Source: Desulfovibrio sp. (GTDB taxonomy: Bacteria; Bacillota; Dethiobacteria; DTU022). Taken from it: a DNA stretch of 40,980 bases. The DNA is taken from NCBI GenBank assembly GCA_020060545.1, contig JAGUZX010000079.1, forward strand, positions 1 through 40,980. The letters run 5' to 3'. Below are positions 25,634 through 40,920 of the stretch, piece after piece (position 1 is the first letter of the stretch; every line of letters starts with the position of its first letter). A program made the translations under genes and the position numbers. The notes beneath the pieces were generated by a model. That model worked only from the letters and a program-made list of their open reading frames with translations. It was not told the DNA's origin and did no database searches.

Positions 25634-27121
25634 ATGGCAGGATTGGTGCCTTTAAGGGATTCCATGCAAAACCTGGTGGACTCACTTTCCATCCAGCTGA
25701 AGCTCGAGATGGAAGTGGTCGATACGCACCTGAACCGGATCGGAGTTTCGGGCAGCCTGCGCGGGCTGGCAGGGACCCGGCAGAAGCGGGGCTTTATTAA
25801 CCGCCACGTGCTGGAAGAAGGCAAGCCCATGCTGATCGCCAACCCGGGGCGGGAACACCACTGCAGCCCTTGTGATCTCAGGCACAGCTGCTCGTACCGG
25901 GCCGGGCTGGCCTGCCCCATCGTTCGCCAGGGGCATGTAGTTGGCGTTTTTGACCTGATGGGTTTTGAGGATGGCGGCTGGCAGATGCTGCGGCAGGGTG
26001 ACGAGCATCTGCTTTCGTTCATCGGGGGTCTCATCAGTGGGCTGGTGACCGGGCAAATTTTCGGCGACCGCAGCGTTGACCAGCACGAGAGTATTGCGGC
26101 GGTTTCCACCGCCCTGCAAATTTCCCGGCAAACCCTGCGCCGCGCTTGTTCAGCTGCCGCGGCGCCGGCAACGGCGCCCACCGACCCATTCGCTGAAATC
26201 TTTGGGACCAGCGCATCGTTGCAGCGCGTGGTGGAAAAAGCACGGCGGGTGGCCCGCCGGGGGGACCTGATCTTGCTGATCGGGGAGACGGGTACGGGCA
26301 AAGAGCTGTTTGCCCGGGCAATACACAGGGCCAGCCCGGCGGGGCGGGGTTCCCTTGTGGCGCTGAACTGCAGCGCCATTCCTGAATCGCTGCTGGAAAG
26401 CGAACTCTTCGGTTATGAAGAGGGCGCCTTCACCGGGGCGCGGCGGGGGGGCAAGGCCGGCAAGTTTGAACTGGCCGACGGCGGCACTCTATTCCTCGAT
26501 GAAGTCAGCGAGCTGCCCTTAAGCCTGCAGCCCAAGCTGCTGCGGGTGCTGGAGCGGCGCACTGTTGAACGGGTGGGGGGCACGGGGTACCGCCCCGTAA
26601 ACATTCAAATTATAGCCGCCTGCAACTGCGACCTGGCTGAACGGGTGCGGCAGGGAAAATTCCGGGCCGACCTCTACTACCGTTTGAAGGGGTTGCCGAT
26701 CTACCTGCCTCCGCTTAGAGAGCGGCGGGATGATATCCCCCTTCTGGCGGAACATTTCCTCGCCGCCGAAGCCGAGCGCTCCGGCCAGGACCTGAAGCGA
26801 TTGAGCGGGACCGCCCAAGAAGCCCTGCTGGTTTATGATTGGCCCGGTAACGTGCGGGAACTTAAGAATGCCGTTGAGTATGCCGCCCTGATGGAAGAGG
26901 GTAACGAAATCAGCATTGAAAGCCTACCCGACGAATTGCAGGACGGGCGGCGCGGTGTTTCGCTGCGCGGGCAAGTGCTGGATTACGAGCGGCAACTGGT
27001 AGCTGCAGCTTTGCGCAGCGAGGGCGAGAATGTGGAAGGCAAGCGCCGCGTAGCCAATCAAATGGGTGTCAGTTTGCCCACTCTCTACCGCCGTTTGAAA
27101 GAACTGGGACTGTCTGATTGA
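25634..27121 (+). CDS. Sigma-54-dependent enhancer-binding activator with a Cys-rich sensor region
   Basis: A 495-residue activator. Residues 1-150 form a GAF/PAS-like sensor containing C77-x2-C80-x5-C86-x7-C94, capable of binding metal or an Fe-S cluster. The AAA+ domain has Walker A (GETGTGKE, about 217-224), the sigma-54 contact loop GAFTGA (264-269), Walker B (GTLFLDEV) and RADLYYRL. A Fis-type helix-turn-helix closes the protein ([20 protein letters not shown]). AGGAGG precedes the ATG. It is followed on the same strand by a sigma-54 promoter for the microcompartment operon, so it is very probably the activator of that operon, responding to the amine substrate, redox or both. Confidence 0.92.
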
Positions 27122-27276: not shown

Positions 27277-27292
27277 TGGTACGACATTTGCT
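27277..27292 (+). promoter_or_regulatory. Sigma-54 (-24/-12) promoter of the microcompartment operon
   Basis: TGGTAC, five bases, TTGCT: both invariant GG and GC dinucleotides are present at the right distance (consensus TGGCAC-N5-TTGCW). The start site should be near 27303. A short palindrome (GGGTT-TTG-AACCC, 27229-27241) upstream is one possible activator site. The upstream gene encodes a sigma-54 activator. Confidence 0.85.
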
Positions 27293-27385: not shown

Positions 27386-28804
27386 ATGGCTCAGGAAGGA
27401 TTGAAGAGAAGTTTGGGGATTCCGGCAACGGTGGCAGCCGCCTGTGGTTTGGTGGTGGCCTCCACAACCCTGGTTTCTTTGGGACAGGGCTTCGGGATCG
27501 GGGGACCGGGTTTTATTATCGCCATGATCATTGCGGTACTGATCAATCTCTTTGTGGCCTTTTCCTTCGCCGAATTATCAGGGATCATCCCCAAAGCGGG
27601 CAGCATCGACCACTATACCCTGCCGGCGCTGGGACGCTTTCTGGCGATTCTGGCCGTCCTCAGCGGCTACGTGACCGTAACCGTATTTGCGGGCAGCGCC
27701 GAAGCGGCGGTCCCCGGCTTTGTTTTTAGCGAGGTGTTTGCCCCGGGTATCCCGCCGGTAATCTACAGCACCATCGTGGTGCTGCTGCTTGCGTATATCA
27801 ACTACCGGGGCATCGAGCTGTTTGGCTGGGTGCAGATCGTGCTGACCAGTATCATGATCGGCACTCTCGTGATCATGGGCATCGCCGGCTTGTTCAGTCT
27901 CAGCGTCACCCCGCCGCTGCCGGCCGAGGGCCCGTTCAACCCCATGGGGTGGGGGGTCCTGGCGCTCACGGCGCTGGGTTTCTGGTTGTTCGTGGGCATT
28001 GAGTACGTCACGCCCATGGCCGAAGAAGTCAAGCGGCCCGGCGTGATGATCCCTATCTCCATGATTTCGGCCCTGGCCATCATTCTCGTGGCCAAGGTGC
28101 TCTTCGGCTTCGCCTCCATCCGCTACGTGCCCCTGGGCATGCTGGCTGAATCCGAGGCGCCCCAGGTGCTGGCGGGCGAAGCCATCTTCGGCTTGCCAGG
28201 TGTCTACTGGATGGCGATCGTCACGATCCTGGCCAGCGCCAGCACGGTGAACACGCTGCTGGCGGCCATACCCCGCCTGCTGTACGGGATGGCGTCCAAG
28301 GGCCAGGCGCCGTCATTTTTCGGCCGGCTGAACACCAGGTATCAAACCCCGGCACTGGGGATCGCCCTGGTGGCTTTGTGCATCCTGATCCCGATCTGGA
28401 TCGGCATCGCCGGCATCGAGATGATCGTGGTGTTTATCCTTGCCGGCGCTTTCTCGTGGTTCATCTCGTATATTATCGCGCACCTCAATGTAATCATCCT
28501 GCGCGTCAAGTACCCCGATGTACCCCGCAGCTTCAAGACTCCGCTGTATCCGCTGCCCCAGCTGCTGGGTATCGCCTCGATGATTTACATGATCATCAAC
28601 ATCTTCCCAGACCCGGTAATGAAGGCGGCCATCTACCGCTACGCCCTGATCTTCCTGGCCCTGTCAGCGGTTTGGGCGGTCATCTGGGTGCGGGTGATCC
28701 AGAAGAAGCCGCTGTTTGCGCCGGTGCCCCTTGAAGAGGTCAGGGAAGCTTCCCTTGCCGAGGCGGCTGGAACGGCCAAAACAACAGCCTCACACGGAGG
28801 ATAA
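27386..28804 (+). CDS. APC-superfamily amino acid/amine permease
   Basis: A 472-residue, 12-TM transporter of the amino acid-polyamine-organocation superfamily. TM1 carries the small-residue unwound motif region (VAAACGLVVASTT) and a loop has FAELSGIIPKAGS. FWLFVGIEYVTPMAEEVKRP is the typical TM6 to loop-7 stretch. KYPDVPRSFKTPLYP is the usual segment before the last helices. The ATG at 27386 follows GGGAGGG. As the first gene of the operon it most likely imports the substrate. Its type (amine, aminoalcohol or amino acid) cannot be fixed from sequence, but the next four genes suggest a primary amine. Confidence 0.88.
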   Translation: MAQEGLKRSLGIPATVAAACGLVVASTTLVSLGQGFGIGGPGFIIAMIIAVLINLFVAFSFAELSGIIPKAGSIDHYTLPALGRFLAILAVLSGYVTVTVFAGSAEAAVPGFVFSEVFAPGIPPVIYSTIVVLLLAYINYRGIELFGWVQIVLTSIMIGTLVIMGIAGLFSLSVTPPLPAEGPFNPMGWGVLALTALGFWLFVGIEYVTPMAEEVKRPGVMIPISMISALAIILVAKVLFGFASIRYVPLGMLAESEAPQVLAGEAIFGLPGVYWMAIVTILASASTVNTLLAAIPRLLYGMASKGQAPSFFGRLNTRYQTPALGIALVALCILIPIWIGIAGIEMIVVFILAGAFSWFISYIIAHLNVIILRVKYPDVPRSFKTPLYPLPQLLGIASMIYMIINIFPDPVMKAAIYRYALIFLALSAVWAVIWVRVIQKKPLFAPVPLEEVREASLAEAAGTAKTTASHGG

Positions 28805-28810
28805 GCAATT

Positions 28811-30151
28811 ATGGCCGACTTTGAACACATTCAACAGCTTATTCGGGAACGGGATATCCGCACACTGCGGGTGGAATTCAGCGATTTTCACGGTGTGATC
28901 CGGGGCAAGGCGGTCTCGATCGACCGCCTTCCCCACATCGTTGAAGAGGGTTTGCATTTTGCCTTGCCCACTTTCGCTTTGGATCTGGCCGGTAACGTGG
29001 CCATGGGCACGGGCTTGGCCGATGAGGTGGGCTACTGCGACATGACCGCACTCCCCGACCTGGACACCTTTATGGTGCTGCCCTGGGAGGCCCATACCGC
29101 CAAGGTGACCGCCGACCTTTACTTAAATGATCAACCCCTGCCCCTGGCGCCCCGGGGCATCTTGAAGCGGGTGGTGGCAGCCTACCATGAAATCGGCCTT
29201 GAGCCGGTGATCGGCAACGAGCTGGAGTTCTTCCTGCTCCGGGAGAACGGCTCCGGCTGGGACCCGTATTGCAACAAACCGAGCATGGTCTATACCATTA
29301 ATCCGATGGTCGACCCCGACAATTTTCTCGGAAAATTGCGCGATACCATGCGGGAGATGGACATGGCCAACCTGGCTTGCGCCCACGAGTTTTTTGCCGG
29401 ACAGTACGAGATCAACCTCGGCCACGGCAAGGCGGTCGAGTCGGCCGATCGCACCTCCAATTTCAAGCAGATGGTCAAGGAGATGGCGGCGCAAGCCGGC
29501 ATTCGGGCCACTTTCATGGCCCAGCCGATTAACGGTTCAGGCGGCAGCGGTTATCACCAGCACCTGAGCCTGGTTGACCGTCAGACCGGCGAGAACCGCT
29601 GTTACGATGCAAACGATAAGTACGGCCTCTCTGAGCTGGCCCGGCAGTTCATCGCCGGCCAGTTGGCTCATGCTCCGGCCATGATGGCCGTGCTGGCCCC
29701 CACCGTCAACTCGTACAAGCGCTACCAGCCCTTCACCTTTGCCCCCTACTACGTGGTCTGGGGCCTTGACAACCGCTCGACCTACATTCGCATCCCGCCC
29801 GAGCGCAAGGGCGGCACCCGGGTGGAGAACCGCACCGCCGACGGCTGCGCCAACCCCTACCTGGTGAGCGCCGCCAACCTGGCCGCCGGGCTTGACGGGA
29901 TCAAGCGCGGCCTGGATGCCGGCAAGCCTTTCTTAGGCGATGCCTACCAGATGACCGGCGAAGAGGGTTACCCTCTGGTGATTCAGAAACTCGAAGACGC
30001 GCTCACCGCCTTAGAGCAGGATGAGTTTATGCTGCAAACCTTAGGATCGGGTTTTGTTCAGGCCTACCTTGCGGTCAAACGCCAGGAAGCCGAACGCTTC
30101 CGTAAATATGTGACCGATTGGGAGATTAACGAATACTCTTTTTACCTATAA
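28811..30151 (+). CDS. Glutamine-synthetase-like gamma-glutamylamide synthetase (GlnT/GmaS type)
   Basis: A 446-residue member of the glutamine synthetase superfamily, joining glutamate to ammonia or an amine with ATP. Metal and substrate residues are kept: GNELEFF (E137, E139), GQYEINL (E200), NGSGGSGYHQH (241-251), NSYKRY (300-305), NRSTYIRIP (from 321) and ENRTAD (339-344). It lacks the adenylylation and feedback features of housekeeping GSI. The architecture and the next three genes match GmaS/GlnT, which make gamma-glutamylmethylamide or related gamma-glutamylamides. Spacing to the permease is 6 bp, with GGAGG ahead of the start. The amine used is unknown; a plain glutamine synthetase role is possible but less likely here. 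Confidence 0.87.
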   Translation: MADFEHIQQLIRERDIRTLRVEFSDFHGVIRGKAVSIDRLPHIVEEGLHFALPTFALDLAGNVAMGTGLADEVGYCDMTALPDLDTFMVLPWEAHTAKVTADLYLNDQPLPLAPRGILKRVVAAYHEIGLEPVIGNELEFFLLRENGSGWDPYCNKPSMVYTINPMVDPDNFLGKLRDTMREMDMANLACAHEFFAGQYEINLGHGKAVESADRTSNFKQMVKEMAAQAGIRATFMAQPINGSGGSGYHQHLSLVDRQTGENRCYDANDKYGLSELARQFIAGQLAHAPAMMAVLAPTVNSYKRYQPFTFAPYYVVWGLDNRSTYIRIPPERKGGTRVENRTADGCANPYLVSAANLAAGLDGIKRGLDAGKPFLGDAYQMTGEEGYPLVIQKLEDALTALEQDEFMLQTLGSGFVQAYLAVKRQEAERFRKYVTDWEINEYSFYL

Positions 30152-30163
30152 GGAGTGACCGGC

Positions 30164-31090
30164 ATGTGTGGGGTGGCGGCTGTTTTCTACAAACGGCGAG
30201 GTGGCGGGTTCAGGGCCGGGGTGATGCTGCGCATGCTTGAGTTGCTCAAGCACCGCGGTGAGGACGCCACCGGCATAGCCGCCTACGCATCCGTCCCAGG
30301 GGAAGGCTGGCGGCTGCGCTTTTCCTGCCGGGAACCGGGGGCGCAGCTTCCGCGGGTCCGGGAGATTGTTGCGGCCCGCGGCCGCTGGGTATCTGAAGAG
30401 ATTACGGTTACCCACTCGCCCTATTATCTGGTGGAGGCGGTGGTGGACTTGCCCGGCGATGCGGTAGGGCCGCTCTACCGCTGCCTGGAGGCAGACCCGG
30501 ACCTGTGCGTGCACAGCTTCAGCGACAGCCTGGCCGTTTTTAAGGATGTCGGGCCGGCCCGCAACCTCACGGGCTACAAAGGCCTGGAAGAGTTGGTTTG
30601 CTCCCACGTGGTGGGCCACGTGCGTTTGGCCACCGAAAGCGTGGACAACCTGAACTTTGCCCACCCGTTCGCGTCGCCGCTGCGTCCTGACCTGGCCATC
30701 GTGCACAACGGACAGCTTACCAACTACTTCCGGTTGCGCCGGAGCCTCGAGAGCAAGGGTGTTGCCTTTAAAACCGGCAACGACTCCGAGCTGATCGCCC
30801 ATTACCTGGCTTACAAGACCGCCGTAGCGGGCAGGGGCCTGCAGGAAGCCTTAAAAACTTCGATCGACGAGCTTGACGGGGTTTTCAGCTACGTGGCGGC
30901 CACCGCGACGGAAATAGGGGCCGTGCAGGACCGCTTGGGGCTCAAGCCGATTGTGATTTACGAGACCGTTGACCGGGTCCTGCTGGGCTCCGAACAGCTC
31001 TGTTTCTCGGTATTGGATGAGGAAACAGCGGGCGAGGAAATTACCCCGGGGGAGGTGCGGTATTGGTCGAATTCGATTGCGCCGGCTTGA
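30164..31090 (+). CDS. Class II glutamine amidotransferase subunit, MgsA/GlxB-like
   Basis: A 308-residue Ntn-type amidotransferase. The ATG at 30164 is chosen because it exposes Cys2 (MCGVAAVF) as the catalytic nucleophile after Met removal; an in-frame ATG nine bases earlier would bury it. Supporting motifs are LKHRGEDATG, GHVRLATE, FAHPFAS and IVHNGQLTNY, and GNDSELIAHYL follows. In N-methylglutamate synthase this subunit hydrolyses the gamma-glutamylamide and hands the freed amine to the synthase subunit. In glutamate synthase it would do so with glutamine. The order GS-like, amidotransferase, GXGXG, FMN subunit is that of the N-methylglutamate pathway. It overlaps the next gene by 28 bp. 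Confidence 0.87.
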   Translation: MCGVAAVFYKRRGGGFRAGVMLRMLELLKHRGEDATGIAAYASVPGEGWRLRFSCREPGAQLPRVREIVAARGRWVSEEITVTHSPYYLVEAVVDLPGDAVGPLYRCLEADPDLCVHSFSDSLAVFKDVGPARNLTGYKGLEELVCSHVVGHVRLATESVDNLNFAHPFASPLRPDLAIVHNGQLTNYFRLRRSLESKGVAFKTGNDSELIAHYLAYKTAVAGRGLQEALKTSIDELDGVFSYVAATATEIGAVQDRLGLKPIVIYETVDRVLLGSEQLCFSVLDEETAGEEITPGEVRYWSNSIAPA

Positions 31091-31800
31091 CGCCGCGGGA
31101 GGTCAACGCCCGTCTGGGGGCCCTCGCCTTTGAGCTGGCGGCGGCGGGGTATAACGAAGAAATTCTGGTCTTGCACCCCCATGCCATGCACAACTTTTGC
31201 GTCGGCTTAAAAACCCCGGTGCGCCTCCGGGTGCAGGGCAGCCTCGGTTCGTATGCCGGAGGCTTTATGAACGGGCCGCAGATCGTCATCAGCGGAAACG
31301 CGGGCTGGTATGCGGGCGACAACATGATGGGCGGCTCCCTGATAGTCGAGGGCAATGCGGGTTCGAACACCGGTCCGTCCATGATCGGCGGCATGCTGCG
31401 GGTGCGGGGCAAGGCGGGCAACCGGGTGGGTTACGCCCTCAAGGGAGGCAGTTTGATCGTCGAAGGCTCGGCCGGCTTTGAGACCGGCAAGATGATGATG
31501 GGCGGCCGGATCGTGCTCTGCGAAGGCGTGGGGCGCAAGGTAGGCGAATCCATGTACGGCGGTTTTATTCATGTGCGCGGCCGGATCGAGGGCCTGGGCG
31601 GCAATATCGAGACCGGCGAACCGCCGCCGGGTGAGCGAGAGGTGCTGCAAGCCTTGCTTGACGAGATCGGCGCCGGTCTTAAGGCCGGCGAATTCACCAC
31701 GATCAAGCCCCGGCCGGGCAAACACAGCTACAAGATCTTCACCCCGGGGCACAGGCCGCGCGAGATGCGGGCAGAAAAGGAGGAAGGGGCGGCGCGATGA
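31063..31800 (+). CDS. GXGXG-domain subunit, MgsB/GlxC-like
   Basis: A 245-residue right-handed beta-helix protein equal to the C-terminal domain of glutamate synthase large subunit. Repeats of G-x-A-G-x-x-x-G-x-x-M-x-G-G (YAGDNMMGG, NTGPSMIGG, RVGYALKGG, ETGKMMMGG, KVGESMYGG) make up most of it. It structurally links the amidotransferase and FMN subunits and shapes the ammonia or amine tunnel. The TTG at 31063 follows GGAGGTG, inside the previous gene. It overlaps the next gene by 4 bp (ATGA), so the three proteins are translationally coupled as one complex. Confidence 0.88.
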   Translation: MVEFDCAGLTPREVNARLGALAFELAAAGYNEEILVLHPHAMHNFCVGLKTPVRLRVQGSLGSYAGGFMNGPQIVISGNAGWYAGDNMMGGSLIVEGNAGSNTGPSMIGGMLRVRGKAGNRVGYALKGGSLIVEGSAGFETGKMMMGGRIVLCEGVGRKVGESMYGGFIHVRGRIEGLGGNIETGEPPPGEREVLQALLDEIGAGLKAGEFTTIKPRPGKHSYKIFTPGHRPREMRAEKEEGAAR

Positions 31801-33221
31801 AAATTCGATGGAATCCTGAAACTTGCACTGACTGCGGCGCCTGCATCGACGCCTGTCCTACCGGGGCCCTGATTCGGGAGGAGGGCGCGGGAGGGGCCGC
31901 GCGCTCTGCTGCAGACATTGCCGCCGCCGCGCCTGTAACCGGGGGTAACGTCTTGGGAAGCCCTTTGGCGGGAGGCGGTTGGAGCGCCGCCGCCATTGCC
32001 GAGATCAGGGAGAAGGCGCGCACCGGCAGCCACCGGATCCGGGGTTGCGGGTCTACCCGCAAGGTCCCCCACTTTGACGATCTGATCTTTCTGCCGGCCC
32101 AGCTTTCCCGGCTATCCATCGATACCTACCGGGAAGAATGCCGCACCCGCACGGTGATCGGCGGCCGTTTCGCCTCCAAGCCCCTGGTGCTGGAGACCCC
32201 CATCCTCATCGGCGCCATGTCCTACGGCGCTCTCAGCAAAGAGGCGAAGACGGCCCTGGCCAAGGGTTCGGCCATGGCGGGGACGGCGATCAACAACGGC
32301 GAGGGCGGCTTGCTGCCCGAGGAACGGGCCAACTCCTACCTGCAGATCTTGCAGATTACCCCGGGCCGTTTCGGCTTCTCCCTGGCCAGCATCGAGCAGG
32401 CCGACGCCCTGGAAATTATCGTCGGGATCGGCGCCAAGCCGGGCCTGACCGGGCACCTGATGGCCGAAAAAATCAGCCGGGAAATTGCCGACTTCCGGGG
32501 CATTCCCGCCGGCATCGACCTGCACAGCCACCCCCGCCACAGCGATATTTTCGGCGCCGACGACCTGGTGCTGAAAATCGACGAATTACGGGAGTTGACC
32601 CGCGGAGAAAAGCCGATCCTGCTTAAAGTGGCCGCCGGCCGGGTTAAGGAAGACGTCAAGATTGCGGCGAAAGTGGGCGCCGACGGCATTACCATCGACG
32701 GCTCGCAGGGCGGCACCGGAGCCGCGCCCGTGGTGGCGCTGGATCACCTGGGGCACCCCACCCTGCCCGCACTGGTACAGGCGGTGCGGGCGTTGGAAGA
32801 GATGGGCGTCAAGGACGAAATGAGCCTGCTGGTATCCGGCGGCATCAAGGACGGGGCCGACGTGGCCAAGGCCCTGGCCATCGGCGCCGACGCAGTGCTC
32901 CTCGGCACCGCCGCCCTGGTGGCGATGGGTTGTAACGTCTGTTTCGAGTGTCACAAGGGCCGGTGTCAGTTCGGCATCGGCACCCAGGATCCCGGGCTGA
33001 AGGCCCGCCTGAACGTGGATGAGGGCGCGCGCAAGGTGGCCAACCTGATTACGGCCATGACCAACGAGGCCGTCATCCTGGCCAAAGCTTGCGGCAAAAC
33101 GGATGTGCACAACCTCGAACGGGAGGACCTCCGGTCGCTGACCCTGGAGTCATGCGCCATGACGGGGATACCCCTGATCGGGACGGATTACACCTTTGGC
33201 CGGCCGTTCGGGTTCTTCTAG
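31797..33221 (+). CDS. FMN-dependent glutamate-synthase-type subunit, MgsC/GlxD-like, with ferredoxin domain
   Basis: A 474-residue protein. Residues 10-21 hold a [4Fe-4S] motif (CTDCGACIDACP), then a linker, then the glutamate synthase FMN barrel: PILIGAMSYGALS, NNGEGG, ITIDGSQGGTGAAP, VSGGIKDGADVAKALAIGADAV and the cluster motif GCNVCFECHKGRCQFG for a [3Fe-4S]-type centre. It reduces the imine formed between 2-oxoglutarate and ammonia or amine, giving glutamate or N-alkylglutamate. Its own ferredoxin domain suggests ferredoxin or internal electron supply rather than a GltD partner, which is absent. Stand-alone glutamate synthase (archaeal type) is the alternative, but the split three-gene layout with a GmaS-like gene favours N-methylglutamate-synthase-like chemistry. 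Confidence 0.87.
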   Translation: MKIRWNPETCTDCGACIDACPTGALIREEGAGGAARSAADIAAAAPVTGGNVLGSPLAGGGWSAAAIAEIREKARTGSHRIRGCGSTRKVPHFDDLIFLPAQLSRLSIDTYREECRTRTVIGGRFASKPLVLETPILIGAMSYGALSKEAKTALAKGSAMAGTAINNGEGGLLPEERANSYLQILQITPGRFGFSLASIEQADALEIIVGIGAKPGLTGHLMAEKISREIADFRGIPAGIDLHSHPRHSDIFGADDLVLKIDELRELTRGEKPILLKVAAGRVKEDVKIAAKVGADGITIDGSQGGTGAAPVVALDHLGHPTLPALVQAVRALEEMGVKDEMSLLVSGGIKDGADVAKALAIGADAVLLGTAALVAMGCNVCFECHKGRCQFGIGTQDPGLKARLNVDEGARKVANLITAMTNEAVILAKACGKTDVHNLEREDLRSLTLESCAMTGIPLIGTDYTFGRPFGFF

Positions 33222-33244: not shown

Positions 33245-33514
33245 ATGCAGGTCTGCCGTGTTGTAGGTTCGGTGACAGCGACAGCCAAAGATGAGCGCCT
33301 GGTCGGCCTTAAGCTGATGCTGGTACGGGCCGCGGACAGCGGAGAGGATACACCGTCATTTGTGGCTGTAGATACAGTGGGCGCCGGGATCGGGGAACGG
33401 GTGCTGGTGGTGTTCGGCTCGGCGGCGCGCCTGGCGACGGCCACCCGGGATACCCCAACCGATGCGGCTATCGTGGCCATTATCGATCCCGAACGCCAGC
33501 CCAAGGACGAGTGA
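33245..33514 (+). CDS. BMC-P microcompartment vertex protein (EutN/CcmL family)
   Basis: An 89-residue EutN/CcmL pentamer protein that caps the vertices of the shell. The family fold is recognisable: [10 protein letters not shown] at the start, then [33 protein letters not shown] and the C-terminal DAAIVAIID strand. AGGAGG precedes the ATG. It is the first shell gene of the operon, 23 bp after the FMN subunit, marking the switch from amine-conjugating enzymes to microcompartment parts. Confidence 0.92.
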
Positions 33515-33705: not shown

Positions 33706-33996
33706 ATGTCAAACGTAAACGGTGTTGCTTTGGGGATGGTGGAAACCAAGGGCCTGGTGGGGGCCATTGAAGCGGCGGATGCGATGGTCAAAGCCGCCAA
33801 CGTGCACCTGGTGGGCAAGGAAATGATCGGCGGCGGCTACGTCACCGTGATCGTGCGGGGCGACGTGGGCGCCGTCAAGGCGGCCACCGACGCCGGTTCC
33901 GCGGCGGCCAACAAGGTGGGCGAGCTTGTTTCGGTGCACGTGATACCGAGGCCCCATGCGGATGTTGAAGCAATCTTACCCAAGGACAAGGCTTAA
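33706..33996 (+). CDS. BMC-H microcompartment shell hexamer (PduA/EutM family), with possible longer isoform from 33517
   Basis: A 96-residue single-domain shell protein. It has [24 protein letters not shown], then the [27 protein letters not shown] core, and the C-terminal [10 protein letters not shown] typical of PduA/EutM. The ATG at 33706 follows AGGAGGAGAAAAGG. The same frame is open back to an ATG at 33517, which would add 63 residues rich in Lys, Arg, Ala and Gly and begins almost at the BMC-P stop. A 190-bp gap is odd in this compact operon, so two isoforms, as in PduB/PduB', deserve consideration. It forms hexagonal facets with pores for substrate. Confidence 0.93.
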
Positions 33997-34075: not shown

Positions 34076-35389
34076 GTGAGCGACCCGCGAGTCGATTCAA
34101 TTGTGGCTGCGGTGATGAGAGAGTTGCAGAACCAGGGGCCGGCCACCGCGCCGGCGGCCCCCCGCCCGGCGGCCGGTAACATTAAGCCGGCGCCGGAACA
34201 GCGGGGGGTGGGCGGCCGGCGCAAGGTCAACCCGAATTTGAAAATTTCGGTTCTGGGCGGCGGCAACGGCGGCCTGGCGATGGCCGGCCACCTGACGCTG
34301 TTGGGCGGCAAGGTGCGCCTGTTCAGCTTCTTCGAGCGGGAGCTGGCCCCGGTGCGGGAAAAGGGCGGCATCGAGGTGATCGGTGAGGAGGTCTCGGGCT
34401 TTGCCCCGGTGATCGACGTCACCGGCAGCATTGACGCCGCCGTCAAGGACGCCGATGTGATCATGATCGTTTCGCCGGCGTATACTCACAACACTTATGC
34501 CGCGCTGCTGGCCGGCTTGCTGCGGGACGGCCAGACAGTGATCCTGAACCCCGGCCGCACCGGCGGCGCCCTGGAATTCGCCCAGGTGCTGCGCCGCTAC
34601 GCCATGCGGGCCCGCATCTACCTCGGTGAGGCCCAGACCTTTATTTATGCCGCCGAGGCGCGGGGTCCCGCCAGGGTCGAGATCTTGAAAGAGAAATTCA
34701 GCATGCGGGCCGCGGCCCTGCCGGCGACAGACAACGACCACGTCATCGGCGTTTTCCAGGAGCTGTATCCCCAGGTCAGGGCCTCCCGCAACGTGCTGGA
34801 GACGGGCCTCGGCAACATCGGGCCGATCAACCACGTGGCCCCGATGCTGCTCAATACCTCGATTATCGAGCGGGCGGCGCACGGCGAGGAAGGGCTGAAT
34901 TTTTACCGTGACATGATCAACCCCACCATCTGCAACCTGGTCCTGGAGAAGATGGACCGGCAGCGGATGGCCGTAGCCGGGGCCTTCGGGTTGGAGACCT
35001 GGAGCACCGTGGACTGGTACCGGGAGTGCTACCATGTCCACGGCGAGACGCTCTACGAGTGCTACCAGACGAACCCTTACATTCAGGGCTTCAGCGCCCC
35101 GATGCATATCCTTTCGCACAACAATATCCCCGACGAAATTCCCAGCTCATTGGTGCCGATGTCCCTTTTGGGCAAAGTGGTGGGTGTGGCCACCCCCAAT
35201 ATTGACGCCATCGTCAACCTGGCCTGCAGCATGTGCGAGATTGACTTCTGGACGGTCGGACGCACCCTGGACAAACTCGGCCTGGCCGGGATGAGCCGGG
35301 ATCAGATCCTCGAATTTGTCGACGGCCAGCCTATCCTCGGGGCGTGCAGCACATGCGGCGTCTGCCGCCCGCTGCCCCAGTTCCGGTAG
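34076..35389 (+). CDS. Opine/octopine dehydrogenase-like NAD(P) enzyme with N-terminal encapsulation peptide
   Basis: A 437-residue protein. Residues 2-20 (SDPRVDSIVAAVMRELQNQ) form an amphipathic helix, followed by an Ala/Pro/Gly-rich linker to about residue 50; this is the form of a microcompartment targeting peptide (compare PduP, PduD). The Rossmann motif VLGGGNGGLAMAG starts near residue 59. NPGRTGGALEFAQVL and GNIGPINHVAPMLLNTSIIE belong to the octopine dehydrogenase family, which interconverts N-substituted amino acids with amino acid plus carbonyl compound. The GTG at 34076 has GAGAGG 8 bp upstream. The C-terminus has four Cys (CSTCGVC and an earlier CSMC). Likely role: oxidise the N-alkylglutamate inside the shell to glutamate and aldehyde. 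Confidence 0.85.
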   Translation: MSDPRVDSIVAAVMRELQNQGPATAPAAPRPAAGNIKPAPEQRGVGGRRKVNPNLKISVLGGGNGGLAMAGHLTLLGGKVRLFSFFERELAPVREKGGIEVIGEEVSGFAPVIDVTGSIDAAVKDADVIMIVSPAYTHNTYAALLAGLLRDGQTVILNPGRTGGALEFAQVLRRYAMRARIYLGEAQTFIYAAEARGPARVEILKEKFSMRAAALPATDNDHVIGVFQELYPQVRASRNVLETGLGNIGPINHVAPMLLNTSIIERAAHGEEGLNFYRDMINPTICNLVLEKMDRQRMAVAGAFGLETWSTVDWYRECYHVHGETLYECYQTNPYIQGFSAPMHILSHNNIPDEIPSSLVPMSLLGKVVGVATPNIDAIVNLACSMCEIDFWTVGRTLDKLGLAGMSRDQILEFVDGQPILGACSTCGVCRPLPQFR

Positions 35390-35397
35390 GTGTTCTG

Positions 35398-36804
35398 ATG
35401 AGCGAAGCAGCGGCTGGAGTCGTCCAATTGGATACCGAATCGGTGCAGGAGGCGCGGGACCTTGCCGAGAAGGCCCGTGCCGCCCAGGCCGAGTATGCCG
35501 GGTTCAGCCAGGAACAGGTCGACCGGGTGGTGGCCGCGATGGCCCGTGTCGGGGCCGCGGCCGCCGAGCCTCTGGCCCGCCTGGCGGTGGAGGAAACAGG
35601 CTTCGGCGTATATGAAGACAAGGTTTTCAAAAACCGCTTTGCCAGCGAACAGCTGAACCGTTCCCTCGAAGGGATGATCACGGTGGGGGTCATCCGTTAT
35701 GACGAGCAGCGGGGTGTGCTGGAGGTGGCCGAGCCGATGGGAGTTTTGGCCGCTTTAGTCCCTGTTACAAGCCCTACCGCGGCTGTGCTATCCAAAAGCA
35801 TCATCAGCCTGAAAACCCGGAACGCCGTAATCTTCGCGCCGCATCCGCGGGCGCCCCGGAGCGGCCTGATGGCCGCCCGGCTGATGAACCGGGCCGCGGT
35901 AGAGGAGGGGGCCCCCGACGGCCTGGTGCAGGTCATGGAAAAGATCACCATGGCGGGAACCAACGAACTGATGCGCCACCCTCATGTGGCCCTGATCCTG
36001 GCCAGCGGCGGCGGCCCCATGGTTAAAGCCGCTTACAGCGCCGGAAAACCCGCCATCGCCGTCGGCCCCGGCAATGTGCCCACTTACGTGGATCGTTCCG
36101 TCCCTGACCTCGATACGGCGGCCCGCCGCATCGTTAACAGCAAGACCTTTGATAACGGGACCCCGTGTGCGGCCGAGCAGGCTGTCGTGGCCGATCGCCC
36201 CATCGCCAGGGCGCTGCGCTCGGCCATGGAACGGGCCGGTTGCTATTTTTTGAGCGAGCTTCAAAAAGCCGCTTTGCGGCCGGTGGTGCAGCTGCCCAAC
36301 GGCGTCCCCAACATCGCCGTGATCGGCCAGAGTGCCGGGCGCCTGGCGGAGCTGGCCGGTTTCCGGGTGCCTGCGGGGACCCGGGTGCTGGTGGCGCCTG
36401 TCGACGCTGTCGGCCCCCAGGAACCGCTCTCGGCGGAGATCCTGAGCACGCTGCTGGCCTGGTACGAAGTGGAGGGCTGGCAGGAGGGGTTGAAGAGGGC
36501 CAACCAGCTCCTCTATTTCCACGGCCAGGGCCATACTTGCGGCGTGCATGCCGCGGACGAAGCGGTAATCGGCGCGTTTGCCGCGCGGGCCCGCGCCTTC
36601 CGGGTGCTGATCAACTGCGGTACCGCGGTGGGGGCGATCGGGCACCAATCGGGGCTGGAGCCCTCGTTGATGATCGGCACGGGCACCTGGGGCGGCGGCA
36701 TCTTCTCCGATAACATCACGGCCCGCCACTTGATGCACGTCAAGCGGGTGGCTTTCCGGGTCGCCGAATGGAACGGTTCCGGCGGACAGGGGGTGAAAGG
36801 ATGA
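35398..36804 (+). CDS. CoA-acylating aldehyde dehydrogenase (AdhE-N/EutE/SauS-like)
   Basis: A 468-residue acylating aldehyde dehydrogenase: aldehyde + CoA + NAD+ gives acyl-CoA + NADH. The catalytic Cys is C257 in FDNGTPCAAEQ. LAVEETGFGVYEDKVFKN at the N-terminus and VALILASGGGPMVKAAYSAGKPAIAVGPGN in the cofactor region match the AdhE N-domain and related sulfoacetaldehyde or acetaldehyde dehydrogenases more than PduP. The ATG at 35398 is used, 8 bp after the previous stop; an upstream ATG overlaps that gene. No encapsulation peptide is evident at either end, so it may enter by co-assembly with the preceding enzyme. Aldehyde chain length cannot be predicted. Confidence 0.9.
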   Translation: MSEAAAGVVQLDTESVQEARDLAEKARAAQAEYAGFSQEQVDRVVAAMARVGAAAAEPLARLAVEETGFGVYEDKVFKNRFASEQLNRSLEGMITVGVIRYDEQRGVLEVAEPMGVLAALVPVTSPTAAVLSKSIISLKTRNAVIFAPHPRAPRSGLMAARLMNRAAVEEGAPDGLVQVMEKITMAGTNELMRHPHVALILASGGGPMVKAAYSAGKPAIAVGPGNVPTYVDRSVPDLDTAARRIVNSKTFDNGTPCAAEQAVVADRPIARALRSAMERAGCYFLSELQKAALRPVVQLPNGVPNIAVIGQSAGRLAELAGFRVPAGTRVLVAPVDAVGPQEPLSAEILSTLLAWYEVEGWQEGLKRANQLLYFHGQGHTCGVHAADEAVIGAFAARARAFRVLINCGTAVGAIGHQSGLEPSLMIGTGTWGGGIFSDNITARHLMHVKRVAFRVAEWNGSGGQGVKG

Positions 36805-37424
36805 ACCAGAAAAAATTCGAATTGAGGGCCTATGCCGTGATCGATCGCATGCAGCCGCAATATGCCGCTTTTGTGGGCACCACCGTCAACGGCGATATCC
36901 CCATCGCGGGCATGTCGCAGCTGTACATGGAGGTCGCTCCCGGCAATGAGGTCTTTCGCATCGCCGATGTGGCGCTGAAGTCCGCGGAGGTGAAGCCGGC
37001 CTCGATGATCGTCGAGCGGGAATTCGGCATGCTCGAAGTGCACGCCTCCGACCAGGCGGCGGTGCTGGCCTCCGGGCGGGCGGTGCTGGAATACCTGGGC
37101 CTTACCGAAGACGACCGGGTACGGCCGCAAATTGCCTCGGCCCAGGTCATTACCAACGTTGATCCCTATCAGGCCCAGCTGATCAACCGCTTCCGGCGGG
37201 GAAGCATGCTGGTGCCGGGTGAGACCCTTTTCGTAATGGAGACGGCCCCGGCCGCCTACGTGGCCGTGGCCGCCAACGAGGCCGAGAAAGCGGCGGGGAT
37301 TAAAATTATTCAGATCAGCAACGTGGGGCGGTTCGGCCGCATGTTTGTCTCGGGCAGCGAGTCGGAGGTGCTGGCGGCCAAAGAAGCGGCCATGGCGATC
37401 ATCGAAGGAATGAGCGGCTTATGA
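36801..37424 (+). CDS. BMC-T tandem-domain shell trimer (EutL/PduB-like)
   Basis: A 207-residue shell protein made of two BMC-type halves. One contains VFRIADVALKSAEVKPASMIVEREFG and the other YVAVAANEAEKAAGIKIIQISNVG, each followed by an alpha-helical AVLASGRAVLEYL or VLAAKEAAMAIIEGM segment. The order suggests permuted domains, as in EutL or PduB trimers, which form larger gated pores. It starts ATGA on the dehydrogenase stop and ends ATGA on the PduS-like start, so it is tightly coupled. Which BMC-T subclass it belongs to needs a structure-based alignment. Confidence 0.8.
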   Translation: MNQKKFELRAYAVIDRMQPQYAAFVGTTVNGDIPIAGMSQLYMEVAPGNEVFRIADVALKSAEVKPASMIVEREFGMLEVHASDQAAVLASGRAVLEYLGLTEDDRVRPQIASAQVITNVDPYQAQLINRFRRGSMLVPGETLFVMETAPAAYVAVAANEAEKAAGIKIIQISNVGRFGRMFVSGSESEVLAAKEAAMAIIEGMSGL

Positions 37425-38788
37425 GCGACCTGGCGGCCCTGGCCGATGCCGTCCGCCTGGCGGGGGTGGTCGGGGCCGGTGGCGCCGGCTTCCCCACCCA
37501 TCTCAAGTTCGCGCGGCGGGCCGAAATTGTGGTCATCAACGGCGCCGAGTGCGAACCGCTGCTCCGGGTTGACCAGGAACTGCTGGCCCGGTGTACGGAC
37601 GAGCTGCTGGCGGGCATCGATGCCGTCCGGGAGGCCGCGGCGCCCGGCGCCATCTGGCTGGGTGTCAAAGCCAAGCACGAGGCGATCGTCGACCGGTGGC
37701 GCCGGTTCGAGGGCCGCGGCTTCAAAGTGCGCCCCCTGGACGATTACTACCCCGCCGGCGACGAACACATCCTGGTGCATGAAGTCACCGGCCGCACGGT
37801 CCCGGCCGGAGGCATCCCCCCCGACGTGGGCGTTACCGTCATTAATGTTGAGACCTTGTTAAATGTGGGCCGGGCGGTCCGGGGACGGCCCGTGACCGGC
37901 AAGTTTGTCACTGTGAACGGCCTGGTGGCGAGGCCCGCCACTCTCGAAGTGCCCGTGGGTACGCCGCTCGCGGCCCTGGTGGCCATGGCCGGCGGACTGA
38001 CCGCCCGGGAGGCGGTGCTGCTCGAGGGCGGCCCGATGATGGGCAAGGTGGTCGGCGATCCCGGCGCGGTGGTGACCCGCACTACCAAGGCGCTGCTGGC
38101 CGTGCCCTCCTGGTTGGACCTGGTGCATCGGCGCCAGGCGGACTGGCGCGTTGTCGCCCGGCGCTCGTCTTCAAACTGCGAGATCTGCCAGCGCTGCACA
38201 GACCTCTGCCCCCGCTACTTGCTGGGGCACAACCTGGAACCCCACAAGGTGATGCGCGCCTATGCCTACGGCGGGAACGCCCCGCCTACCGCTTCCCTGG
38301 CGGGGGCCCTCTACTGCGTCGAATGCGGCGTGTGCGAACTGTTTGCCTGCCCGACCGGCGTCTTTCCCCGGCAGGTGACGGGCTCCGTGAAGGAACAGCT
38401 TCTCGCCGCCGGGCGGCGGCCCCAGGTGGATCGCGAAAACGGGCCCAAACCCCGGCAGTACGCCGGGGATCGGCGGGTGCCCTTTAAAAGGCTGGTGGCC
38501 CGCTTGGGGCTTGCACCATACGATCTGCCGGCGCCGCTCAGCGAGACCCGCTGGCCCGAGCGGACGCTCACGGTACGGGTGCCTTTGAAGCCGCCGTTCG
38601 GTGCAACCTGCCGGCCGGTGGTGGCCGCGGGACAATTAGTGCGCGCGGGCGATGTGGTGGGCGAGATTCCGGATCGCACATTGGGTGCGCGGGCCCATGC
38701 CAGTATCGACGGAAGGGTGGAAGCCGTGGACGAACGTTACGTGGTGATTACAGGTCCGGCGCCCGGGCCCGCAGGAGGTGAGGCCTAG
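37421..38788 (+). CDS. pduS: PduS-like RnfC-family flavin/iron-sulfur oxidoreductase
   Basis: A 455-residue protein of the RnfC/NuoF-like PduS family. The N-terminus has the nucleotide-binding GAGGAGFPTH (18-27), then the SLBB region. Two [4Fe-4S] motifs lie at C253-x2-C256-x2-C259-x3-CP (CEICQRCTDLCP) and C299-x2-C302-x2-C305-x4-CP (CVECGVCELFACP). The C-terminal lipoyl-like segment has VVAAGQLVRAGDVVGEIP. In Pdu systems PduS oxidises NADH and was proposed to reduce cobalamin. No B12 enzyme is encoded here, so general NADH reoxidation with electron export through the PduT-like shell protein next door is more plausible. Confidence 0.9.
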   Translation: MSDLAALADAVRLAGVVGAGGAGFPTHLKFARRAEIVVINGAECEPLLRVDQELLARCTDELLAGIDAVREAAAPGAIWLGVKAKHEAIVDRWRRFEGRGFKVRPLDDYYPAGDEHILVHEVTGRTVPAGGIPPDVGVTVINVETLLNVGRAVRGRPVTGKFVTVNGLVARPATLEVPVGTPLAALVAMAGGLTAREAVLLEGGPMMGKVVGDPGAVVTRTTKALLAVPSWLDLVHRRQADWRVVARRSSSNCEICQRCTDLCPRYLLGHNLEPHKVMRAYAYGGNAPPTASLAGALYCVECGVCELFACPTGVFPRQVTGSVKEQLLAAGRRPQVDRENGPKPRQYAGDRRVPFKRLVARLGLAPYDLPAPLSETRWPERTLTVRVPLKPPFGATCRPVVAAGQLVRAGDVVGEIPDRTLGARAHASIDGRVEAVDERYVVITGPAPGPAGGEA

Positions 38789-39340
38789 ATGGAAAACGGC
38801 GCCCTGGGTGTCTTAGAAATGAACAGCATCGCCTGCGGCATCGAGGCGGCCGATGCGATGCTCAAACGGGCCGCGGTGTCCCTCTACTTAAGCCGGCCCA
38901 TCTGCCCCGGCAAGCACATCACCATGGTGCACGGCCTGCTTGCCGATGTCATTGAGGCCGTGGCGGCGGGCGCGGCCATGGCCGGTGACCGGCTGGTGGA
39001 CAGCCTGATCCTGGCCCGGCCGCACCCCGGGTTGCTGCCGGCGATGACGCAGACCAGCGGCGTGACCGGCCTGAGCGCCGTGGGCATTATCGAGTGCTTC
39101 AGTCTCTGTGCCGCGCTGCGGGCCGCCGACGCCGCCGTAACCCGCGCCGCCGTCGATCTGATCGAGGTGCGCCTGGCAATTATGATGGCGGGCAAGGGTT
39201 TTGTTACCTTTACCGGCGACGAATCGGCGGTAAAGGAGGCTGTGGATGCCGCTGCGGCCATAGCCTCGGGCGAAGGCATGCTGGCGGCGGCGGTAGTGAT
39301 TCCCCAACCCCGGGAAGAACTGCTCTCCTTCCTGGTCTAG
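38789..39340 (+). CDS. pduT: PduT-like BMC-T shell protein with Fe-S ligand cysteine
   Basis: A 183-residue protein with two tandem canonical BMC domains: LGVLEMNSIACGIEAADAML then AVGIIECFSLCAALRAADAAV. SRPICPGKH places C39 exactly where PduT carries the pore cysteine that ligates a [4Fe-4S] cluster at the trimer axis, so electrons could cross the shell here. It starts directly at the base after the PduS-like stop. PduS and PduT are functional partners in propanediol compartments, and their adjacency is retained. Confidence 0.93.
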   Translation: MENGALGVLEMNSIACGIEAADAMLKRAAVSLYLSRPICPGKHITMVHGLLADVIEAVAAGAAMAGDRLVDSLILARPHPGLLPAMTQTSGVTGLSAVGIIECFSLCAALRAADAAVTRAAVDLIEVRLAIMMAGKGFVTFTGDESAVKEAVDAAAAIASGEGMLAAAVVIPQPREELLSFLV

Positions 39341-40334: not shown

Positions 40335-40363
40335 AATAACAGCAATCCATGGAGGTGTGCCAT

Positions 40364-40612
40364 TTGCCAAATATCAAGCCGGTTTCAGACTTAAGAAATT
40401 ACAACGAAGTGCTCCGTTCCTGCCAGGTTGGAGAACCTGTTTTTTTAACTAAAAACGGCAGGGGCCGTTATGTGCTTTTGGATATTCAGGAATATGAAAA
40501 GCAGCAGGCTGTCATCAAGCTTTTATCAAAACTTTCTGAGGCAGAGGATGCGATAAAAACAGGAGAGGAATGGAAATCACTTGATGACCTCAAGAAATCA
40601 CTGGAGGTCTGA
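40364..40612 (+). CDS. Phd/YefM-type antitoxin
   Basis: An 82-residue antitoxin. The TTG at 40364 after GGAGGTG gives the common N-terminus MPNIKPVSDLRNYNEVL of RelB/Phd-YefM antitoxins; an ATG at 40349 would overlap the ribosome site. NGRGRYVLLDIQEYEK is the DNA-binding-domain end and the C-terminal acidic helix would wrap the toxin. It is 2 bp from the toxin gene and should autoregulate the promoter at 40306. Confidence 0.88.
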   Translation: MPNIKPVSDLRNYNEVLRSCQVGEPVFLTKNGRGRYVLLDIQEYEKQQAVIKLLSKLSEAEDAIKTGEEWKSLDDLKKSLEV

Positions 40613-40614
40613 AA

Positions 40615-40920
40615 ATGAAATATAAAATCAGAATCAACCCTGTGGTGATTTCCGATGTGCAGGAAATAAAGGCTTACATCGCTGAAGACAACCCCCAAGC
40701 CGCTGCAAGGATGGGAAACACAATCTATTCAAAGATTAAAAAGCTGGCTGATTTCCCTAAAATGGGCACCTCAATATCCTCGAAAATTAACACACAGACA
40801 GATTACCGCTTCCTTGTCTGTGGTGTGTATCTCATATTTAGGGCCTCCGCCCAGAGCTGTTTGGCTTTTGGTAACGCAAAAGGCGGCACCTCGCCCACCT
40901 GCCTCAAAAGTTCCGCGTAG
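40615..40920 (+). pseudogene. RelE/ParE-type toxin with replaced C-terminus
   Basis: The first about 74 residues are a normal ParE/RelE toxin (INPVVISDVQEIKAYIAEDNPQAAARM, LADFPKMGTSI, TDYRFLVCGVYLIF). After VYLIF the expected ending (typically YxxxxxxVxIxRVLxGRRDY) is missing. It is replaced by residues read antisense to a transposon ATPase gene, starting around 40838. The toxin therefore lacks its C-terminal catalytic or target-contact strand and helix and is probably inactive. The antitoxin remains intact. Confidence 0.7.

Follow-up and report, generated by a model that had tools for sequence, protein, structure and literature searches.

An opine-dehydrogenase-like enzyme with a predicted encapsulation peptide in a microcompartment operon proposed to oxidise amines through N-alkylglutamate

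Results

An opine-dehydrogenase-like gene among microcompartment genes

We analysed a 40,980-nt contig, JAGUZX010000079.1 (GCA_020060545.1), here called the window, which carries on its + strand an operon in which bacterial microcompartment (BMC) genes accompany a gene for an opine-dehydrogenase-like enzyme (ODH; 34076..35389); the other operon genes given below lie on the same strand. Family match, fold and tree place the ODH in PF02317, with a Rossmann domain and an Octopine_DH helical domain in the fold of N-(1-D-carboxylethyl)-L-norvaline dehydrogenase (CENDH). The CENDH structure 1bg6 was its best structural match (Foldseek E 1.7e-34, 36% identity, TM 0.94 by target length), and the two enzymes share the His of an H-x-x-P segment. 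His253 is invariant in set A2, and the Asp of the TP-x-x-D motif is kept in the BMC-linked members but not in L057 and L058, two of the BMC-free relatives described below. We propose that the enzyme is an aldehyde-generating N-alkylglutamate dehydrogenase. Its C-terminal tail (window 35330-35389) is Cys-rich (GACSTCGVC); this tail is missing from the Thermincolaceae orthologues, and the Myxococcota orthologue has a different one with two Cys.

Family matches identify the surrounding shell and core genes. Upstream of the ODH lie a BMC-P vertex protein (EutN/CcmL; 33245..33514) and a BMC-H shell protein (33706..33996) that is 80-84% identical in other BMC loci. Downstream are an acylating aldehyde dehydrogenase (AldDH) of EutE/AdhE type (35398..36804), a BMC-T shell protein of CcmP/CsoS1D type (36801..37424), a PduS/RnfC-like flavin and Fe-S protein (37421..38788) and a PduT-like BMC-T (38789..39340) whose SRPICPGK motif makes it a proposed Fe-S electron port. 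The AldDH, an acylating enzyme by family match and thus of predicted activity, is nearest to acetylating acetaldehyde dehydrogenases, scoring 405 bits against these and 266 bits against succinate-semialdehyde dehydrogenases.

A search of genome contigs with a three-row ODH alignment recovered relatives, a single-ODH query having returned none. The BMC-linked set comprises five ODHs: that of the window, those of a Thermincola metagenome-assembled genome (MAG; L040/L041, = L054), a genome of the same genus (L042/L043) and UBA2595 (L039, = L055), and that of a Myxococcota MAG (L053). Three close ODHs are BMC-free (L056, L057 and L058). Further loci (L004-L038) have short flanks, so the absence of BMC genes there is a local statement only. 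The gene set of the window (ODH, glutamine synthetase-like, GATase, GXGXG, FMN, AldDH, PduS and BMC-H/T/P genes) recurs in shuffled order in the Thermincolaceae and Myxococcota loci, and the Thermincolaceae loci additionally hold PTAC and acetate kinase (AckA). A wider search of the phylum Myxococcota gave no further BMC-linked ODH beyond L053, no relative was found in viral contigs, and the plasmid matches, among those listed, were opine-type enzymes only, at identities of about 32% or less.

The N-terminal extension as a predicted encapsulation peptide

The ODH probably starts at GTG 34076, because a ribosome-binding site, AGAGGTG, stands 5 nt ahead of it; the predicted product then begins M-SDPRVDSIVAAVMRELQNQ. 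Residues 1-20 (34076..34135) form an amphipathic helix, as judged by comparison, helical moment and AlphaFold, and are followed by a disordered linker (34136..34222) with 60% A/P/G across 30 residues; the Rossmann motif GGGNGG lies near residue 60. An AlphaFold2 run on an alignment of 26 homologues gave a helix at 4-19, pLDDT <50 at 22-47 and pLDDT >90 from about residue 50. The translation agrees with the sequence-only reading, and the form described there, an amphipathic helix and an Ala/Pro/Gly linker on a Rossmann enzyme, is reproduced by the predicted helix, the disorder and the 1bg6 fold. By definition, an encapsulation peptide consists of an amphipathic helix of about 18 residues at a protein terminus, connected through a disordered linker (PMC12339742), and both elements are present in the ODH.

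Comparison across relatives carries the assignment. S11, I12, V13, V16, E19, L20 and Q21 (numbered from 34067, not 34076) are identical in the window and Thermincolaceae ODHs, although the linkers differ between them, and the helix is also present in the Myxococcota orthologue; all four other helix-bearing orthologues sit in BMC loci. When 112 homologous ODH open reading frames (ORFs) were scored, the helix pattern was found in every BMC-linked one and in one ORF of 28% identity with a doubtful upstream reading. The three nearest helix-less homologues, the BMC-free ODHs, are 48-51% identical and have just 6-19 residues ahead of the glycine motif; no BMC-domain protein was matched in their genomes, whose completeness is unstated. 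The five BMC and three non-BMC members form one clade with 100/100 support, within which the peptide is present in 5/5 BMC members and absent from 3/3 non-BMC members. The tree requires at least two changes of BMC linkage, and these counts are not independent events, because the sequences are related. The scoring and the helix-less close homologues rule out the helix as a general trait of this ODH family.

These comparisons support the N-terminal extension as an encapsulation peptide, with predicted entry of the ODH into the shell. The sequence-only reading had proposed the same and had asked whether orthologues away from BMC genes carry the extension; alignment of the BMC-free orthologues showed that they lack it, and within the clade the peptide tracks BMC linkage. 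It appears highly improbable that the extension stems from a wrongly called start or is an unrelated tail. Such an error would fit the helical moment of the window sequence alone, which, at a mean of 0.52, is the top value among 13 operon N-termini and yet only weakly exceeds the values for shuffled versions of the sequence (P = 0.06). Since single-sequence amphipathicity is unimpressive, the peptide claim rests on comparison; an error would leave unaccounted for the residue-level conservation across lineages despite variable linkers, the tie to BMC loci, the predicted helix and disordered linker, and the ribosome-binding site.

The ODH is the only enzyme of the window operon with a clear encapsulation peptide. 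It is kept where the AldDH is replaced by a distant type (L053) and irrespective of whether PTAC and AckA are present. Since it also fills the place of N-methylglutamate dehydrogenase, these features support, as the best inference, the earlier proposal that it is the signature core enzyme of the compartment. The AldDH was considered as the conserved core and dismissed, given that the Myxococcota locus uses a distant AldDH (L053 16542-17960) carrying its own N-terminal peptide, MGLDIKQIDAIVEKIVTRL. Another encapsulation-peptide-like N-terminus was seen on a 266-aa protein with no Pfam match, encoded between PduS and PTAC in UBA2595 (L039 10348-11148).

A GmaS-like ligase and an MgsABC-like synthase in the operon

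The sequence-only reading had left the chemistry of the compartment unnamed, and the genes ahead of the shell genes suggest an N-alkylglutamate route. They encode a glutamine synthetase (GS) homologue (28811..30151), a class II GATase subunit with an N-terminal MCG nucleophile (MgsA/GlxB-like; 30164..31090), a GXGXG subunit (MgsB/GlxC-like; 31063..31800) and an FMN subunit (MgsC/GlxD clade; 31797..33221), the last assigned by family match and tree and the two before it by family match.

All four ammonium-site residues checked are lost from the operon GS (D51->A, S54->T, Y180->V, E328->F at E. coli GlnA positions). GlnT references from N-methylglutamate-type loci and the GS of the BMC-linked relatives have likewise lost these four, and all are kept in the other GS of the window's genome. 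GmaS differs from GS in missing the Asp50' and Glu-flap residues (PMC7948447), and the operon protein has the GS fold without them. This supports a GmaS-like gamma-glutamylamide synthetase. In whole-sequence scores the protein is about equally close to solved GmaS/Glu-methylamine ligases and to ordinary GS. Overall, many GS proteins lie at much the same distance from it, so its assignment as an amine ligase depends on the active-site residues and the gene context.

In the tree, the FMN subunit clusters with GlxD (MgsC) at 97/97 and separately from GltB (100/100). Three separate subunits with the FMN one in the GlxD clade correspond to MgsABC/GlxBCD and support an operon-encoded MgsABC-like FMN synthase of the N-methylglutamate synthase type. 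Same-clade FMN genes occur in all tested genomes holding this ODH clade, the three BMC-free ones included. L058, which is BMC-free, has its ODH gene immediately after a GmaS-like GS gene, beside GATase and GXGXG genes. Given the active-site residues of the GS and the FMN tree, we reject ordinary GS/GOGAT nitrogen assimilation. As a separate observation, the GlxD-type core of the window's FMN subunit is fused to an N-terminal 4Fe-4S ferredoxin-like domain (window 31797-31880), which may hint at its electron donor. Two Thermincolaceae BMC loci also encode a second, deep-branching FMN glutamate-synthase-like protein (L039 6700-8115, with Fer4 domains, and L043 125-1402).

These genes also bear on whether the compartment degrades an imported natural opine, with the ODH splitting the opine and GS/GOGAT-type genes assimilating the freed nitrogen. 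The ODH is nearest to CENDH, a true opine dehydrogenase, and the operon has an amino-acid-type permease. Against this, the operon GS lacks the ammonium-site residues, the FMN subunit is of GlxD rather than GltB type, and elsewhere in the genome lie a different GS, with those residues intact, and a further FMN gene of glutamate-synthase-like type. Opine cleavage, moreover, normally yields a keto acid and thus no aldehyde for the AldDH, and we regard opine degradation as quite improbable.

A proposed pathway for enclosed N-alkylglutamate oxidation

The N-methylglutamate pathway is encoded by mgsABC-gmaS-mgdABCD (PMC6237917). In it, N-methylglutamate dehydrogenase acts directly after the synthase. 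No flavin N-methylglutamate dehydrogenase of the MgdABCD/SoxBDAG type was present among the operon genes examined. Synthase clusters elsewhere do come with a flavin dehydrogenase. In Rhizobium and Paracoccus it is of sarcosine-oxidase type, and genomes G280 and G156 have an FAD/2Fe-2S/DAO set. In these last two (L164 5613-17371 and L166), a 2Fe-2S/FAD/BFD/DAO set comes after an APC permease, a GmaS-like GS and MgsABC-like genes; together they probably form an amine-oxidation cluster that has neither ODH nor shell.

Judging from gene content, the window operon likely specifies a metabolosome for oxygen-independent oxidation of a primary amine via an N-alkylglutamate route. An APC-family permease (27386..28804, by family match), which shares 45% identity with the permease next to the synthase genes of G280, would bring in the amine. 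The GmaS-like ligase, an enzyme type supported by sequence, would couple it to glutamate at ATP cost, giving a gamma-glutamylamide, and the MgsABC-like synthase, supported by phylogeny, would shift the amine onto 2-oxoglutarate to form an N-alkylglutamate. Retained in the lumen through its N-terminal peptide, the ODH would then use NAD(P)+ to release glutamate and a toxic aldehyde. It would thereby stand in for the flavin N-methylglutamate dehydrogenase that aerobic methylamine users employ. The opine-dehydrogenase fold is suited to this, because an N-alkylglutamate is an opine-type secondary amine. The oxidative direction is taken from context. The AldDH, of known family and presumed substrate, would convert the aldehyde to acyl-CoA before it escapes, and PduS and the PduT-like shell protein would export electrons. 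In Thermincolaceae, PTAC and AckA, whose genes are present, could recover ATP.

The likeliest substrate is ethylamine or another short alkylamine; RhGmaS accepts ethylamine with a Km of 58 uM, against 27 uM for methylamine (PMC7948447). A variant compatible with the N-alkylglutamate route would start from beta-alanine, GABA or an amino alcohol, the AldDH yielding malonyl-, succinyl- or glycolyl-CoA. Amino acids are common substrates of APC permeases, L053 contains a gene for a PuuD-like peptidase C26, and the operon GS resembles PuuA at several active-site positions; the AldDH scores favouring acetaldehyde over succinate-semialdehyde dehydrogenases and the PTAC and acetate kinase added in Thermincolaceae loci point the other way, leaving this variant possible but unlikely.

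The ODH might instead run reductively, using NADH to couple an aldehyde or keto acid with an amino acid; this would regenerate luminal NAD+, the role of alcohol dehydrogenase in Pdu/Eut. Opine dehydrogenases are known above all as reductive enzymes, and the window locus showed no gene for an alcohol dehydrogenase. This would, however, leave no other aldehyde-making enzyme in the locus; NADH reoxidation could fall to PduS together with the PduT-like shell protein; and BMC-free L058 pairs its ODH with GS and synthase genes where there is no luminal NAD+ to recycle. We consider reductive operation improbable.

Several points count against N-alkylglutamate oxidation in a metabolosome, beside the even whole-sequence GS scores noted above. 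The searches turned up no more than five ODH-bearing BMC loci, in three lineages. PTAC (PF06130) had no match in the window's genome (95% complete), though it is present in the relative L039, and neither an alcohol dehydrogenase nor acetate kinase was seen in the window locus. Some accepted metabolosomes also lack PTAC (PMC4207490), so its absence is not disqualifying. The weak point of the proposed pathway is the regiochemistry of the ODH. Known opine dehydrogenases oxidise the carboxylate-bearing carbon; a productive reaction here needs hydride removal from the alkyl carbon, because attack at the glutamate alpha-carbon merely reverses the synthase step.

Comparison with known metabolosomes and pathways

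The Thermincolaceae loci resemble Pdu/Eut in holding PTAC. Unlike Pdu/Eut, the system described here has no B12 or glycyl-radical lyase, and the window locus is without PTAC and alcohol dehydrogenase; in the proposed route, the aldehyde comes from an NAD(P)-linked enzyme of the opine-dehydrogenase fold fed by GmaS/MgsABC-like proteins. With the N-methylglutamate pathway (gmaS, mgsABC, mgdABCD; glnT, glxBCD) it shares a GmaS-type ligase adjoining a three-subunit FMN synthase and the FMN clade, but the ODH replaces the flavin dehydrogenase and the last steps are apparently shell-enclosed. Relative to CENDH, the ODH carries an encapsulation peptide, and its gene neighbourhood favours a role in N-alkylglutamate oxidation over one in opine metabolism. 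The MUF/MIC metabolosomes (Axen 2014, Sutter 2021) are likewise AldDH-bearing BMC loci, with no signature enzyme known.

In the main text of Axen 2014 and Sutter 2021, opine/octopine dehydrogenase, glutamine synthetase and glutamate synthase are unmentioned; the locus may already be listed in the supplementary tables of the 2021 survey, as a metabolosome without function. Searches for literature joining opine/octopine dehydrogenase or N-methylglutamate with microcompartments found nothing relevant, in line with the earlier statement that no microcompartment with an opine-dehydrogenase signature enzyme was known. What appears new is the proposed signature enzyme of this metabolosome, together with its proposed pathway. 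On balance, we lean towards a new functional BMC class for anaerobic amine catabolism by enclosed N-alkylglutamate oxidation, in which an opine-dehydrogenase fold was recruited as the NAD(P)-linked dehydrogenase and bears an encapsulation peptide exactly where a shell is present. If true, this would assign a function to a kind of metabolosome locus in which no signature enzyme is evident, extend BMC chemistry by a new way of generating aldehydes, and amount to a soluble form of the N-methylglutamate pathway that is NAD(P)-linked and needs no oxygen. The ODH clade also offers a natural with/without comparison for gain or loss of an enzyme's encapsulation peptide.

Flanking features

Ahead of the operon, a gene for a GAF-containing sigma-54 activator (25634..27121, + strand; family match) encodes a probable regulator. 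A pattern scan found a sigma-54-type promoter-like site, TGGTACGACATTTGC (27277..27291, + strand), between this gene and the permease. Directly downstream of the BMC operon lies a Phd/YefM antitoxin and ParE toxin pair (window 40349-40920).
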